The notes beneath the pieces were generated by a model. That model made no database searches, was not told the origin of the DNA, and was given only the letters and a program-made list of their open reading frames with translations. A DNA stretch of 64,000 nt from Enterococcus haemoperoxidus ATCC BAA-382 (lineage in GTDB: Bacteria; Bacillota; Bacilli; Lactobacillales; Enterococcaceae), in the NCBI RefSeq assembly GCF_000407165.1, contig NZ_KE136479.1, positions 755,464 through 819,463 of the forward strand. The letters are read 5' to 3'. Every line of letters begins with the position of its first letter. Within the stretch, counting starts at the first letter, position 1. This document shows, piece after piece, positions 58,738-64,000 of the stretch. The position numbers and the translations under genes were made by a program.

Positions 58738-58784
58738 AAAAACTGTTGATGAAAAGTTATCGTAAACTTTTCATCAACAGTTTT
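58738..58784. terminator. perfect 20-bp hairpin outside the left inverted repeat
   Basis: AAAACTGTTGATGAAAAGTT and AACTTTTCATCAACAGTTTT flank a six-base loop. On the minus strand the stem ends in TTTTT, so it would stop transcription coming leftward out of the recombinase segment. Confidence 0.75.
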
Positions 58785-58891
58785 GAAAAAAATATATATT
58801 AATGATATTTAAAATAGATTATTTTTTAATTAAATAGTGAAAAAAATAGGATATATTGTTATAATGAAACTACGATCAAGTGATAAAGATC

Positions 58892-58919
58892 TTTCTTGAA
58901 TGTAGTAGTTATAAGAAAA
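58892..58919 (+). repeat. left 28-bp inverted repeat of the recombinase segment
   Basis: The 28 bases starting TTTCTTGAATGTAG and ending GTTATAAGAAAA occur in exact reverse complement at 60509-60536. The repeat has inverted outer arms TTTCTT/AAGAAA, as expected for a tyrosine-recombinase core site. Confidence 0.85.
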
Positions 58920-58970
58920 TAATGTTCTAAAAATGATCTAACCAGCTTTGATTTCTAGCTACTAATTCAT

Positions 58971-58999
58971 TTTATATCAAAAATAGGAAGCAGTCTATA
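58971..58999 (-). promoter_or_regulatory. candidate leftward promoter inside the recombinase segment
   Basis: On the minus strand an extended -10, TGaTATAAA (58979-58971), is preceded by TTATAG about 18 bp upstream (-35 weak). It points out of the segment through the left repeat, 50 bp away. After inversion of the segment it would point at the regulator gene at 60734. The rest of 58636-59228 holds the hairpin, the left repeat and arm sites; I see no gene. Confidence 0.4.
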
Positions 59000-59181
59000 A
59001 GTAAAAGTTCGGTTTTTTATCATTTTTTTAATAAAATTGATAAAAAAATGAGAATAATTAACTACTATTTTGAATGTAGTGTGAAAAATAGATGGATTTT
59101 ATCATGATTTTTCTTGTTTATGTCCTATTTTATCCAGTAAAGGTTAATCAGTATTCGTTAGAAAATGATTTTATATTTTTT

Positions 59182-59202
59182 AGCCGTCAAATAAGCCGTC
59201 AA
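59182..59202 (+). repeat. left arm-type direct repeats (AGCCGTCAA x2)
   Basis: AGCCGTCAA at 59182-59190 and 59194-59202, period 12. The same text occurs at 60449 near the right repeat. Such paired short direct repeats are typical arm-binding sites of the N-terminal domain of Tn916/lambda-type integrases. Confidence 0.6.
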
Positions 59203-59228
59203 TTTTTTTGGGGAAAGGGTGTCGTGTT

Positions 59229-60353
59229 TTGAGCAGAAAAGGTGAGAACATTTATAAAAGAAAGGATGGTCGTTGGGAAGGCCGATATATGAAAGCGAGA
59301 AATGAGCATGGTAAAATTATTTATGGCTATATTTATGGGAAACGCTATAGACATGTAAAAGAACGATTGGCTGAATTGAAAGTTCAATACTCTTTTTCGC
59401 ACAAAAATATCAACGTGTACAAAGGCACAGTTGAAAATTGGTTAAATCATTGGTTGAATGTATTGATGCAAAAGAAAATTAAGCGTTCTACTTATTCAAG
59501 TTATCGTTTGCGTATCGACAAATACATTATTCCGTTTCTAGGAAAAAAACAATTAACTCAATTGAAAAGTCAAGACGTAGAAGAATTTGCTAACTATCTC
59601 ACTCAATTGGATTTATCTCCTTCGACTATCCATTCGATTATAACTGTACTAAAAAGTGCGATGAACAAAGCTTGTATTGAAAATTACATACTATCTAATC
59701 CATGTAAAAATCTATTTTTGGCAGCAACGAAAAATTCAGAAATATCAGCACTTAGTATGAAAGAACAAGAAAAAATCGAGCAAGTTGCCTTGAGAGAGGC
59801 AAACTGTTCAGCGGTTATTTTAGCATTATATACAGGTTTGAGGATTGGCGAAATCAGTGGATTAAAGTGGAGTGATATCGACTTTGAAAAAAATATTATT
59901 TATATAAGAAGGACACTTTATAGAATTCCTAGCACAACAAACAGCAATAAAACAGAGATCATTTTGGCAGAGCCAAAAACGAAAAGCTCTAAGCGTTCGA
60001 TTCCTTTAGCCAAAAATTTGAAAAACTACCTATTGGATAAGCAAAAAAGTATTACTTCTGAATATGTGATTTCTTGTAAAGAGAGTTATGCTGAGCCTAG
60101 AGTTATCAGTTATCGATTTAGAAAAATCATTGAAGAAGCTGGCATTCGATCGGTTCATTTTCATATTTTACGTCATACATTCGCTACAAGGTGCGTTGAG
60201 CAAGGGATCGATATTGCGACATTAAGTAAATTACTAGGACATGCTTCAATAAAACTGACCTTAGATACTTACACAGACTCTCTTTGGGAAAATAGAAAAG
60301 CAGCGGTTTCAGTAATTGATAATAAATTAAGAACGGCATTTGTTTCATCCTAA
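59229..60353 (+). CDS. tyrosine recombinase (integrase family) inside an inverted-repeat segment
   Basis: 374 residues from TTG 59229, ten bases after GGGGAAAGGG; seven further codons are open upstream. N-terminal AP2-like arm-binding domain (GENIYKRKDGRWEGRYMKARNEHGKIIYGYIYGKRYRHVKERL), a SAM-like core-binding domain (about 65-155), and the catalytic domain with Arg near 205 (TGLRIGEISGLKW), HILRHTFATR (His and Arg near 312-315), GHASIKLTLDTYTD (His and Tyr near 338-347). All catalytic residues are present. No phage, conjugation or excisionase genes accompany it. The gene lies between two 28-bp inverted repeats, so inversion, not excision, is the expected reaction. Confidence 0.92.
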   Translation: MSRKGENIYKRKDGRWEGRYMKARNEHGKIIYGYIYGKRYRHVKERLAELKVQYSFSHKNINVYKGTVENWLNHWLNVLMQKKIKRSTYSSYRLRIDKYIIPFLGKKQLTQLKSQDVEEFANYLTQLDLSPSTIHSIITVLKSAMNKACIENYILSNPCKNLFLAATKNSEISALSMKEQEKIEQVALREANCSAVILALYTGLRIGEISGLKWSDIDFEKNIIYIRRTLYRIPSTTNSNKTEIILAEPKTKSSKRSIPLAKNLKNYLLDKQKSITSEYVISCKESYAEPRVISYRFRKIIEEAGIRSVHFHILRHTFATRCVEQGIDIATLSKLLGHASIKLTLDTYTDSLWENRKAAVSVIDNKLRTAFVSS

Positions 60354-60360
60354 ATAAAAA

Positions 60361-60409
60361 AATAGTTCATGTTAAAACGAATCATTCGTTTTAACATGAA
60401 CTATTTTTT
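60361..60409 (+). terminator. terminator of the recombinase gene
   Basis: AATAGTTCATGTTAAAACGAA pairs perfectly with TTCGTTTTAACATGAACTATT around a three-base loop, followed by TTTTT. Confidence 0.9.
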
Positions 60410-60448
60410 TACCAGTAAGTTTCAACTTAGCAAATATATAGTTTTTTT

Positions 60449-60468
60449 AGCCGTCAAAAAATGGTCAA
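60449..60468 (+). repeat. right arm-type direct repeats
   Basis: AGCCGTCAA at 60449-60457 followed by a second, imperfect copy ending GGTCAA at 60468. Both are preceded by a T-run just as on the left side (TTTTTTAGCCGTCAA). Confidence 0.55.
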
Positions 60469-60508
60469 TGAAACTTTTAAGCCCTGTCAAATGAACTAAA
60501 ACGAGCAT

Positions 60509-60536
60509 TTTTCTTATAACTACTACATTCAAGAAA
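60509..60536 (-). repeat. right 28-bp inverted repeat of the recombinase segment
   Basis: Exact reverse complement of 58892-58919. The sequence identity ends abruptly on both sides apart from a shared GAT outside, which argues for a recombination site and not for a longer duplicated region. Confidence 0.85.
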
Positions 60537-60733: not shown

Positions 60734-61444
60734 ATGTATGTGATTGGATACATTGCATCAAATAATGAAATAAGTGAACAACATAAAAAACTATTTGAAT
60801 CACTTCATTGTCAGATTCAACTGATTGAAAAGGAAAAAGTTGTTCAACTCCTTGAAAAGGAGAATAACGTATTACAACATATTGAAACCTTAATTATCGA
60901 TGTGGATAGGCTAAGTAATTTTAATTGGGTTTGTGAAATAATCATGAATTTACGCAAGCAAACGACGTTACCACTTTGGATTTTAACTTCATCTAACTAT
61001 ACAAATCGAACAAACCGAATTGTCTATTTACAGCTTGGCGTGGATGGCGTTCTCGACAAAGAACATGGGTTAGATGAGCCTATTTTGATGATGAGAAACT
61101 TAATGCAGCGATTTAAGCAACAGGTGACACCTAAAAATACATTAAGTAGTGAATCTGTTCAGTTTAAGTTAATACCGCAGAATTTAAGTGTCAGCTTAAA
61201 CCATGGTGAGGAAGTCAACTTAACAAAATTAGAATTTCTAACAATCGAGTATTTACATAAGCATGCCCGCGAAACAATGACATACGAAGATATCTATGAA
61301 AATGTATGGAATGATAGCTACGGAAATAGAAAATATCGAGTATCTAATTTAGTCTTTCATTTACGAAAAAAATTGGAATCAGATATTGAAAAACCAAAAT
61401 ACATTAAAACAATCCGCTCTAAAGGGTATATGTTAAATGTTTAG
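60734..61444 (+). CDS. winged-helix (OmpR/PhoB-type) regulator with atypical receiver-like domain
   Basis: 236 residues. Residues 1-130 have a receiver-like alternation, with LIIDVDRLSN where the phosphorylated Asp would stand and ILTSSNY and LQLGVDGVLDKEHGLDE as in response regulators, but the acidic pocket near residue 10 is missing, so phosphorylation is doubtful. Residues 145-236 are a Trans_reg_C winged helix (LTKLEFLTIEYLHKHARETMTYEDIYENVW ... YIKTIRSKGYML). No kinase gene is near. AAGGGAGG precedes the ATG. Probably controls the adjacent surface-protein genes. Confidence 0.85.
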   Translation: MYVIGYIASNNEISEQHKKLFESLHCQIQLIEKEKVVQLLEKENNVLQHIETLIIDVDRLSNFNWVCEIIMNLRKQTTLPLWILTSSNYTNRTNRIVYLQLGVDGVLDKEHGLDEPILMMRNLMQRFKQQVTPKNTLSSESVQFKLIPQNLSVSLNHGEEVNLTKLEFLTIEYLHKHARETMTYEDIYENVWNDSYGNRKYRVSNLVFHLRKKLESDIEKPKYIKTIRSKGYMLNV

Positions 61445-61530: not shown

Positions 61531-61626
61531 AATGAATGAGCTGAGTCAATCGTTGCTTGTTTGTCTGGAAAGGAGGGGAAAACTGGGTCGTTTCGTAAAC
61601 AATATAAACTTTGGGAGGAAAAAGAT

Positions 61627-62958
61627 TTGAAAAAAACACATGTATTGAAAAATGGGTTACTAACATTGGCAGCGACCCTTGCACTAGGAGCAGTAGTATT
61701 GACAGTACCAACTACCATTTCAGGAAGTCCGGTTGTGGCTTATGCAGCGGAGGAAACAGCAGAAGTAGCCACAATCGCTGAATTTGAAGCAGCATTAAAA
61801 AATCCAACGATCACTGTAATCAATGTGAACCAAAGTATTCAATTCACTAAAAACATTACAAATATCCCTAATCGTGATTTAACGATCAACGGAAATGCGG
61901 ATAAAGGTGTCGTGATCAATTCAGCTCACAACTCTATCTACGGCAAACAAAACACAAAAGGTAAAAATCTAGTAACGATCACTAACGCTAATATTGTTGG
62001 TGCAGACAGTGACGGACGTTTCTTTACAGGCGGAGCAGGTAATGGTCCTTCAAGTTACGGTTGGGATGTTTTAGCGAAAAATGTTACTTACACTGGTGCT
62101 CGTTTTGTTCACCTTAGTGAAGGAAAATTAACATTTGATGGCACAAACACTATCACAACTCGTGCTGAAAATGCTTGGGTTCATGATTTAGAATTCAAAG
62201 CTGGTTCTACCTATAATGGAATTGCTGCAAATAAAGACCATGGTCAATTTTCAGCTTTCTACTTCAACGGTGCTTTGATCAAAGGCAAAGCAACTGGTGA
62301 AGCAATTATCGGAGACAAAGCAAAAGTAAATGTAAAAATTGGACCACAAAGTAATGTTAACCATTACTATCCAGTTTTTTATGACAAAGTTCAAAAAGTA
62401 GATGTTGGTACAGATGCTTCACTTGATGTTGATGCAGCTGGAGTGGCATTCCAATTTATTCCTCGTGCAGATTACGTGAACAAAGTACCAACATTTAATC
62501 TAGCTGCTGGAAGTAAAGTTCACTTGAATGGCCGTGGTGGCGGAAACTACGCAACAATGAAATTACAGTACTACGGATCAGAAGTAAATGTTTCTGAAGG
62601 GGCTGAATTAGTTGTTACTGGTAACAGTACAAAAGCTGTTATTGAAAGTGAGTATAAAGGTGCGGTAATCAATTTAAACGCTCCTGAAAACTTTGAAGTA
62701 ACAAACAAAAAAGCAAATTCAAAACTATTCTATTCAACAAATACAACAATTAATGCAACAGACGTAAGTGAAGTAGCAACTTGGGCTCAAACTGGCGGTG
62801 AATATGAATACACACCAGTTTATTTAGATGCCGGAGACTTTTCACTGAACTTTGGTAAGATCTGTAACAGTAAAACCTTATCTATAACAGGAGATCTATC
62901 ACCTAACTTTGCTTTAGAAAACTACGGGAAAATTTCTCTAGTTGGCGGTGGCGCATAG
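61627..62958 (+). CDS. secreted pectate-lyase-like (beta-helix) surface protein
   Basis: 443 residues from TTG 61627, with GGGAGG nine bases upstream; the longer frame from 61561 has no such site. Signal peptide about 1-41 (LAATLALGAVVLT ... VAYAAEE). The mature part is a repetitive beta-solenoid of the pectate-lyase-like adhesive type (DLTINGNADKGVVIN, NLVTITNANIVGADSDGRFFTG, KLTFDGTNTITT, GSEVNVSEGAELVVTGNS). No LPxTG and no WxL motif near the C-terminus (which ends LVGGGA), so wall attachment is unexplained. Enterococcal WxL clusters typically carry such a gene as the first surface member. Confidence 0.8.
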   Translation: MKKTHVLKNGLLTLAATLALGAVVLTVPTTISGSPVVAYAAEETAEVATIAEFEAALKNPTITVINVNQSIQFTKNITNIPNRDLTINGNADKGVVINSAHNSIYGKQNTKGKNLVTITNANIVGADSDGRFFTGGAGNGPSSYGWDVLAKNVTYTGARFVHLSEGKLTFDGTNTITTRAENAWVHDLEFKAGSTYNGIAANKDHGQFSAFYFNGALIKGKATGEAIIGDKAKVNVKIGPQSNVNHYYPVFYDKVQKVDVGTDASLDVDAAGVAFQFIPRADYVNKVPTFNLAAGSKVHLNGRGGGNYATMKLQYYGSEVNVSEGAELVVTGNSTKAVIESEYKGAVINLNAPENFEVTNKKANSKLFYSTNTTINATDVSEVATWAQTGGEYEYTPVYLDAGDFSLNFGKICNSKTLSITGDLSPNFALENYGKISLVGGGA

Positions 62959-63189: not shown

Positions 63190-64000
63190 GTGAAAAAAAA
63201 TAAGTGGAGAGCTTTCGTGGTTATCTGTTTTATGTTACTTGGAATTTACTATATAAATACTAGTAAAGATAAAGCCATACTGGCTGCTCCAGAAAACTAC
63301 AATGATATCTTATTAGCTCCAGGCATTAATATCGCCAATGGGGTAGGGACAGATACTGAAATCCCAGGAGATTTTGGTACAATGTTCAAACTGACCAAAG
63401 AGGTTAGTTATGAAGTCAAAGGCTTAAAAGATCCGGTAAATGATGTACTTGTAAAAACAGGTTCAGGAATAAATGACCCAAAAGCTTCAAAAGTATTTCG
63501 ATTTAGTCCTGATAATGTTGTACCTGAAAAAAGTGTTTTGGTAAAGAATGCAGGACTTTACAATGGCAGAAGCATTGATTTAAAGCTAGTGATCGACGAT
63601 ATGGATATTGCACCCGATGAGACGACTGGAAAATATCCATATGTAAACTTTATGGCGGTAAACTATAACGACAAAGACAAAACGGATGAAATTCCATCAA
63701 CCAATATAAAGGTCTGGAATGAAATGTTTTTAATGTTCGGAAGTGCGACAAGAAGTAGTTCAGGATTCAATGATGCCTACGCTATTGGAGACAAAGTAGA
63801 CTATCATTATGAATTTTTTGACCATGAAACGGGCGCTGCAGTGAATTTCCAAGGTACTTGGAATTTTAATAACATCAATGGCTTGAAAGCCGTAACAACA
63901 GACTTTGATGGGGATTTCAATAATTTATATGTGTTAAAAGATACGTGGATTGGTTATTTGAAAGATACACCGAAAGCTGGAAAGCTTGAGCTTTACGGTA
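63190..64000 (+). CDS. large secreted surface protein, N-terminal part (runs off the window)
   Basis: GTG 63190 with GAGGAGGTGG upstream opens a frame that continues to the window end (270 codons seen). N-terminal signal peptide or anchor (KKNKWRAFVVICFMLLGIYYI), then an extracellular part beginning around residue 35 (APENYNDILLAPGINIANGVGTD) with NNINGLKAVTTDFDGDFNNLY further on. Long proteins of this build in enterococcal surface clusters are adhesin-like. The C-terminus (WxL or LPxTG) is not in the window. Confidence 0.75.
   Translation, partial: MKKNKWRAFVVICFMLLGIYYINTSKDKAILAAPENYNDILLAPGINIANGVGTDTEIPGDFGTMFKLTKEVSYEVKGLKDPVNDVLVKTGSGINDPKASKVFRFSPDNVVPEKSVLVKNAGLYNGRSIDLKLVIDDMDIAPDETTGKYPYVNFMAVNYNDKDKTDEIPSTNIKVWNEMFLMFGSATRSSSGFNDAYAIGDKVDYHYEFFDHETGAAVNFQGTWNFNNINGLKAVTTDFDGDFNNLYVLKDTWIGYLKDTPKAGKLELYG

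Follow-up and report, generated by a model that had tools for sequence, protein, structure and literature searches.

A probable self-inverting promoter cassette that encloses its own tyrosine recombinase, beside a surface-protein operon of Enterococcus haemoperoxidus

What is a tyrosine recombinase doing alone between two perfect inverted repeats, just ahead of a regulator and a set of surface-protein genes? We addressed this question in a stretch of 64,000 nucleotides from E. haemoperoxidus ATCC BAA-382 (contig NZ_KE136479.1, positions 755,464 to 819,463), here called the window, to which the coordinates in Table 1 refer. Our answer is that the locus is very probably a self-inverting promoter cassette. 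The case is built from the architecture of the segment, from the many relatives of the recombinase and from relatives in which both orientations can be seen.

The window segment and its genes

The first-pass annotation had reported perfect 28-bp inverted repeats with a complete tyrosine recombinase as the only gene between them, and both points hold, the repeats exactly and to the base. No other ORF of at least 80 aa lies between the repeats, and the recombinase matches PF00589 (E 2.9e-27 in a Pfam scan). The repeat pair can be extended to 32 nt at 97% (58888-58919/60509-60540). When up to three mismatches are allowed, the 28-mer is found at only two places in the 3.58-Mb genome, which are the window repeats themselves. 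Across 13 genomes, a comparison that leaves out L156 and the more distant L160-L164, the two arms of the window site show 0.85 differences of 28 within a genome versus 2.99 between genomes, and none of 10,000 permutations gave a value as low as 0.85. We infer that the window recombinase pairs the two repeats.

Table 1. Features of the cassette and of the adjoining operon in the window
Feature	Position	Strand	Basis
Fixed promoter-like element GTGAAA-17-TATAAT, outside left repeat	58837..58865	+	Scan; conserved in nine aligned sequences
Hairpin left of segment	58739..58784	-	Perfect 20-bp stem
Left inverted repeat, predicted core recombination site	58892..58919	+	Perfect 28 bp; arms co-vary across 13 genomes
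Outward promoter TAGACT-17-TAAAAT	58969..58997	-	Promoter scan; conserved in nine aligned sequences; family enrichment
Left GCCGTCA pair, candidate arm-type sites	59182..59202	+	Invariant in nine aligned sequences; enriched in family
Tyrosine recombinase inside segment	59229..60353	+	Pfam PF00589, PF14659; alignment; predicted model
Terminator-like hairpin between recombinase and right repeat	60355..60411	.	Perfect 28-bp stems 60355-60382/60384-60411
Right GCCGTCA pair, second copy degenerate	60449..60468	+	Conserved in alignment A3; enriched in family
Right inverted repeat, predicted core recombination site	60509..60536	-	Same basis as left repeat
Inverted repeat and TATAAT-type element before regulator, outside segment	60574..60619	+	Scan; conserved in alignment A3
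Orphan OmpR/PhoB-type regulator	60734..61444	+	PF00486, E 2.4e-17
Surface protein with adhesive pectate-lyase-like domain	61561..62958	+	PF20585, E 8.5e-18
Large exported protein, runs past window end	63190..64000	+	ORF map with continuation

The recombinase has an N-terminal part of three strands plus a helix, a core-binding domain and a catalytic domain. Because the aligned copies begin there, its start was set at the TTG at 59229 and not at 59208; its stop is at 60353. In the predicted model, the N-terminal block comprises strands E6-9, E15-23 and E29-36 and helix H39-56 (pLDDT 60-79), an arrangement like that described for arm-binding domains in PMC8138268. The modelled catalytic domain has strands at 228-233 and 241-246, which may form a beta insertion like that of the IntTn916 subgroup. 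Taken alone, the N-terminal domain had no match in Pfam or among PDB sequences. For the protein as a whole, the Int of Tn1549 is the top match both by sequence and by structure, the structure matches depending mainly on residues 60-354. The protein belongs to the PF00589 tyrosine family and is not a serine invertase of the Hin or Gin type. In an alignment of all the genome's copies but L021 (12 of 13), residues R204, H311, R314, H337 and Y347, which we take to be the catalytic residues of tyrosine recombinases, are invariant. Mean pairwise identity among these 12 copies is 81% in the N-terminal strands, 40% in the core-binding domain and 58% in the catalytic domain.

The regulator that follows the right repeat has a winged helix and a receiver part that is barely recognisable (Response_reg at E 0.11, with the matches shown against response-regulator models all below cut-off). 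It stands before the first surface gene of the operon (61561..62958). Beyond the large exported gene lie small exported ORFs and then a WxLIP_PGBD protein (PF06030, C1:823380-823733), whose presence suggests an operon of the WxL/csc type; sequence motifs in the ORF map hint at putative WxL-domain proteins as well.

A family of cassettes with shared inner elements

The window recombinase is one of 13 copies in its own genome at E 1e-75 or better. Twelve of these lie between inverted repeats of 21-36 nt, which mostly differ between loci, with L031 and L032 sharing theirs. All 12 repeat-flanked copies are followed by a regulator of one family, with 169-392 bp separating the recombinase and regulator matches. 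Genes for exported proteins come next, and a PF06030 gene lies within about 10 kb downstream in 11 of the 12. Over the matched stretch, 12 of the 13 copies are free of stops, and the only stop in the other falls right at the end of its gene. Cassette sizes measured in the family are about 1.5-1.6 kb, and the window segment is 1.6 kb long. With 12 cassettes that have mostly different core sites, many surface loci could toggle largely independently.

Several copies depart from this layout. The thirteenth copy (L036, G000:C2:837642-838718) has neither inverted repeats nor an adjacent regulator; its neighbours are a ychF-like gene and, about 2.7 kb away, a PF06030 gene. Repeat-less copies like it, possibly orthologous, are found in other genomes (L083, L089 and L093). 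L200, L204, L208 and L212 (e.g. G019:C1:643973-645073) have no detectable repeats and lie about 10 kb from a repeat-flanked second copy. The recombinases of L031, L032 and L033 are nearly identical (361-365 of 366 residues). The middle of the site is the same in L031 and L032 and departs from this by one base in L033, possibly the beginning of insulation between sites. A second class of locus, seen in ORF maps, has the cassette followed by a large exported-type gene with no regulator. In L138, a clostridial cassette has a large exported-type gene on either side (1785 and 1411 aa), both pointing outward, and one promoter could choose between the two. On an E. raffinosus megaplasmid (L293, NZ_CP081847.1:124773-137858), a family recombinase is followed by a helix-turn-helix gene and by an accessory Sec locus annotated with secA2, secY2 and asp1; the arrangement thus extends beyond WxL operons.

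The family is widespread in the genus, all 22 genomes searched having 6-13 copies. In the taxonomic family, the recombinase is found in 37 of 105 genomes and in 4 of 17 genera (E 1e-70). By per-genome counts, the 22 genomes hold 194 matches, of which 150 were analysed; outside these are L156, G010:C4 and others. L156 was left out by a position filter and has a repeat and a co-oriented regulator. Flanking repeats are present in 121 of the 151 analysed rows; the 151 include one edge duplicate (the first L029 row is the gene of L032) and count both ends of the G021 locus (L221/L222) separately. Of the remaining rows, 26 lack both repeat and regulator and 4 lack only the repeat. A repeat score of at least 15 was reached at 118 of 147 loci with full flanks versus 14 of 441 mismatched flank pairs. 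Among 79 named loci, counted with one main recombinase each, this score was reached at 33 of 43 Enterococcus loci and 30 of 36 others. The long repeats of L117 and L118 (81 and 172 nt), both from outside Enterococcus, may be duplicated sequence, and the L282 repeat (score 15) is probably due to chance.

An alternative is that the system serves mainly to exchange cassettes or surface operons among loci or strains and that inversion is a side effect. Two E. raffinosus loci look as if a cassette had been replaced, the flanks of L293 and L295 being 99% and 89% identical and the cassette only 79%, and the three nearly identical recombinases of the window genome have near-identical sites. Yet the core sites differ between most loci of this genome, which should hinder exchange, and the flanks beside cassettes are conserved, as 473 same-orientation pairs attest. 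We regard exchange as a quite improbable main role.

Near both inner ends of the segment lie copies of GCCGTCA. In the window, the left pair ends 26 bp upstream of the recombinase start and the right pair begins about 60 bp before the right repeat; in the family, the preferred positions are about 30-50 bp upstream of the recombinase match and 46-64 bp short of the right repeat. On the recombinase strand of the 121 cassettes, the left inner flanks (30.8 kb) contain 164 copies and the right ones (19.5 kb) 110, with 0 and 1, respectively, on the opposite strand and a single copy in each set of outer flanks (36.0 and 36.1 kb). Exact copies occur on the left in 112, on the right in 89 and at both ends in 84 of the 121. 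This motif and the outward promoter motif considered below were written after viewing these sequences, and their counts describe rather than predict. The paired form is loose: with up to two mismatches, it is found at five places in the genome, four in cassettes and one outside. The strand-biased enrichment, together with the well-conserved N-terminal domain, suggests a set of integrase-type recombinases with common arm sites and mostly private core sites. The candidate element for binding by the N-terminal domain (residues 1-60) is AGCCGTCAAATAAGCCGTCAA.

Promoters, terminators and orientation

In the switch that we propose, the recombinase would pair the two inverted core sites and flip the 1.6-kb segment, its own gene included, and its N-terminal domain would help by binding the GCCGTCA elements at both inner ends. 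As the segment lies now, the outward promoter would point in the direction opposite to the surface operon, and transcription of the recombinase gene would run into a strong terminator, leaving the regulator and the surface genes off or low; the present orientation is thus presumably OFF. Flipping the segment would aim the outward promoter through the right repeat at the regulator, whose product would in turn switch on the surface operon (ON).

The outward promoter had been annotated as a leftward extended -10 element at 58971-58979. A promoter is present there, but it is better read as a -35 of TAGACT (58997-58992), a 17-bp spacer and a -10 of TAAAAT (58974-58969), a form kept in the window and eight orthologues. 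Its support comes from this conservation, since the promoter scan of the window is at chance (15 sites versus 16.4 in shuffles). In 80 of 121 cassettes, versus 1.8 in shuffles, the inner flank distal to the regulator contains the motif T[TAG]GAC[TA]-17-TANNNT in the outward-reading direction; the opposite strand there has it in 1 of 121, the other inner flank has 0 and 2, and the outer 200-bp flanks have 0-5. This confinement to one segment end agrees with the earlier claim that the promoter, once inverted, would read into the regulator. The strict motif is missing in 41 of the 121 cassettes, and a relaxed form, written after seeing these misses and run without shuffles, is found in 104 of 121 (6, 1 and 12 elsewhere).

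The terminator annotated for the recombinase gene corresponds to a hairpin of perfect 28-bp stems that is terminator-like in the scan on both strands (best 60-nt MFE -30.9). By an uncontrolled count, the interval from recombinase to right repeat contains a 60-nt stretch with an MFE of at most -10 in 99 of 121 cassettes, and some cassettes have weak hairpins behind the recombinase (L027, -7.1; L031, -7.0; L213, -5.7). On the other side of the segment, the hairpin claimed at 58738-58784 does have a perfect 20-bp stem, but it is absent from the terminator scan and, by eye, from some orthologues. It could end leftward transcription ahead of a TraX-like gene. A two-way switch that drives the left neighbour in the present orientation was considered and rejected: the nearest left ORF is on the readable strand in only 4 of 12 cassettes of this genome, or 5 of 12 if a 102-aa ORF beside L038 counts. 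The genes upstream of the L038 recombinase form what we take to be a type I-C CRISPR-Cas operon.

The OFF state may be incomplete because a further conserved promoter-like element precedes the regulator in the window. Another such element (58837-58865) reads into the segment toward the recombinase. Both are conserved in the window orthologues, and both would suit a different assignment, in which the segment inverts but the present orientation is ON, with fixed elements driving expression. Inversion would then shut expression off or only alter the supply of recombinase. The fact that the present orientation is far commoner would also suit this assignment. However, the fixed left element is not apparent by eye at the other loci of this genome, the uncontrolled hairpin count (99 of 121) places a low-MFE stretch between recombinase and right repeat, and the family-wide promoter motif is the outward one. 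An ON state now, sustained by fixed elements, is in our view unlikely, and so are both consequences that inversion would have under it.

The self-inverting cassette predicts that the segment inverts, and inversion is seen at two other loci of the family, though not in the window strain. Comparison of related assemblies revealed one cassette flipped between orthologues and one assembly with both orientations. In the former, L213 (G006) and its orthologue L215 (G013) have flanks collinear on both sides and a 1.5-kb cassette that is inverted at 84% identity; L213 is also inverted relative to L211 (G020). In the latter, the first and last 40 kb of the main contig of G021 match directly at 99.9% over nearly their whole length, the one exception being the 1560-bp cassette, which is reversed. 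Each junction combines an outer half-site that has remained with its flank and an inner half-site that has moved along with the segment, which points to strand exchange inside the shared core. The ends match as would the overlapping ends of a circle. A contig-end assembly artefact has to be allowed for as a residual chance, although reciprocal half-site exchange is what recombination predicts. For this 3.84-Mb contig (G021:C1, ends L285-L288), the inverted cassette may be the reason that it was left unclosed. Both orientations are thus found among family members in G006 and G021. A probable third case is a pair of Streptococcaceae (L082 and L085) in which the surface-type gene lies on opposite sides of the cassette, with support from one flank only, and three more flipped pairs have one-flank matches of 66-243 bits. 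By extension from these relatives, inversion would also occur at the window locus in the window strain, and it would switch the surface operon on, the regulator acting as activator.

These flips also bear on the idea that the locus is the remnant of a mobile element, the repeats being old attachment sites and the recombinase a functionless leftover integrase. The protein does resemble integrases of the Tn1549 and lambda types, and some copies in the family are broken, for example in G003. A leftover would hardly be expected to have both orientations in one assembly (G021), catalytic residues invariant in 12 aligned copies, 13 copies in one genome of which 12 lack a stop and one has a lone stop at its very end, a constant gene context and arms that stay alike within a genome while drifting between genomes. 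We consider a remnant extremely unlikely.

Inverted orientations are nevertheless the exception. Among 186 cassettes, flank-sharing pairs comprise 473 in the same orientation and 10 flipped, and 6 of the 10 involve L213 or L222. The recombinase points to the regulator in 106 of 108 rows with both repeat and regulator (in co-oriented rows L216, L218, L219 and L224, the regulator match is more than 2.3 kb away). One of the two inverted rows comes from a locus that is already represented among the 106 by its opposite contig end. This skew of 106:2 shows that the family is not at a half-and-half equilibrium; a bias of the enzyme towards the present orientation, or selection for it in culture, may be the reason. 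No flip was seen among five E. raffinosus megaplasmid records, of which four are mutually comparable and the fifth was compared with one draft contig. Low inverted fractions are known for some switches elsewhere, with 0.5% for Cdi7, 2.6% for Cdi5 and 4.3% for Cdi6 in PMC5903667.

Significance and relation to known systems

Promoter inversion has been reported as rare in Bacilli. In PMC5903667, 14 of 15 signature-positive Firmicutes are Clostridia and 1 is from Bacilli, and PMC11892184 gives Bacillus-like Firmicutes a median of 0 invertons per genome. Here, every one of the 22 genomes searched in one enterococcal genus carries 6-13 recombinases of the family. The cassettes offer a hypothesis for how these enterococci diversify their surface, with many coats toggled separately. 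They would also give recombinases of the integrase type a part in a chromosomal switch, whereas PMC8138268 ties the kind of domain that their arm-binding-like part resembles to mobile elements. Alike in the N-terminal domain and divergent in the core-binding domain, these recombinases form a natural set for learning how sites are chosen. Among the papers listed by searches of the open-licence literature, none, judged by title and abstract opening, describes this cassette system or a recombinase switch before WxL/csc operons.

A more speculative possibility, and one that we hold to be rather doubtful, is a genus-wide surface code in which captured integrases with one shared arm element and mostly private core sites switch in coordination. 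With such a code, the surface of this strain could take up to 2^12 states. Since the common arm element is found directly upstream of almost all the recombinase genes, each recombinase could bind there and restrain others, and this cross-restraint would lead to coordinated switching, for example with one coat ON at a time.

Switches with the recombinase gene inside the segment and invertible promoters of surface genes are already known. In the flagellar switch of Salmonella, which has an outward promoter, the recombinase Hin is a serine recombinase. The window family is like the Hin switch in having a recombinase gene inside the invertible segment and an outward promoter, but it differs in using a tyrosine recombinase and in having 12 cassettes in one genome with mostly differing sites. 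Hin is likewise named as an invertase encoded within its inverted segment in PMC5903667. With E. coli fim and C. difficile RecV, the family shares inverted repeats, a tyrosine recombinase and an invertible segment before surface or other genes. According to the same paper, segments of the fim/RecV type described there are 154-314 bp long with the recombinase gene outside, and RecV serves several sites (PMC5903667), whereas the cassettes described here enclose the recombinase and have repeated arm-like elements inside. The fimbrial invertible segment of Providencia stuartii also encloses a recombinase ORF near a surface locus. It measures 844 bp, has 14-bp imperfect repeats and is reported at one locus (PMC5903667), in contrast to the window family with its cassettes of about 1.5-1.6 kb, mostly longer repeats and many copies.

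In the content of the operon and its PF06030 protein, the locus resembles enterococcal WxL/csc operons. In its enzyme, it resembles the IntTn916 subgroup (Tn916, Tn1549 and phage integrases), with which it shares the predicted N-terminal three strands plus helix, the core-binding domain and the catalytic domain. The best-characterised arm-binding members move mobile elements by integration and excision, as PMC8138268 describes. The window recombinase is integrase-like, but we do not class it as the integrase of a mobile element because it is the only ORF between its sites and these sites are inverted.
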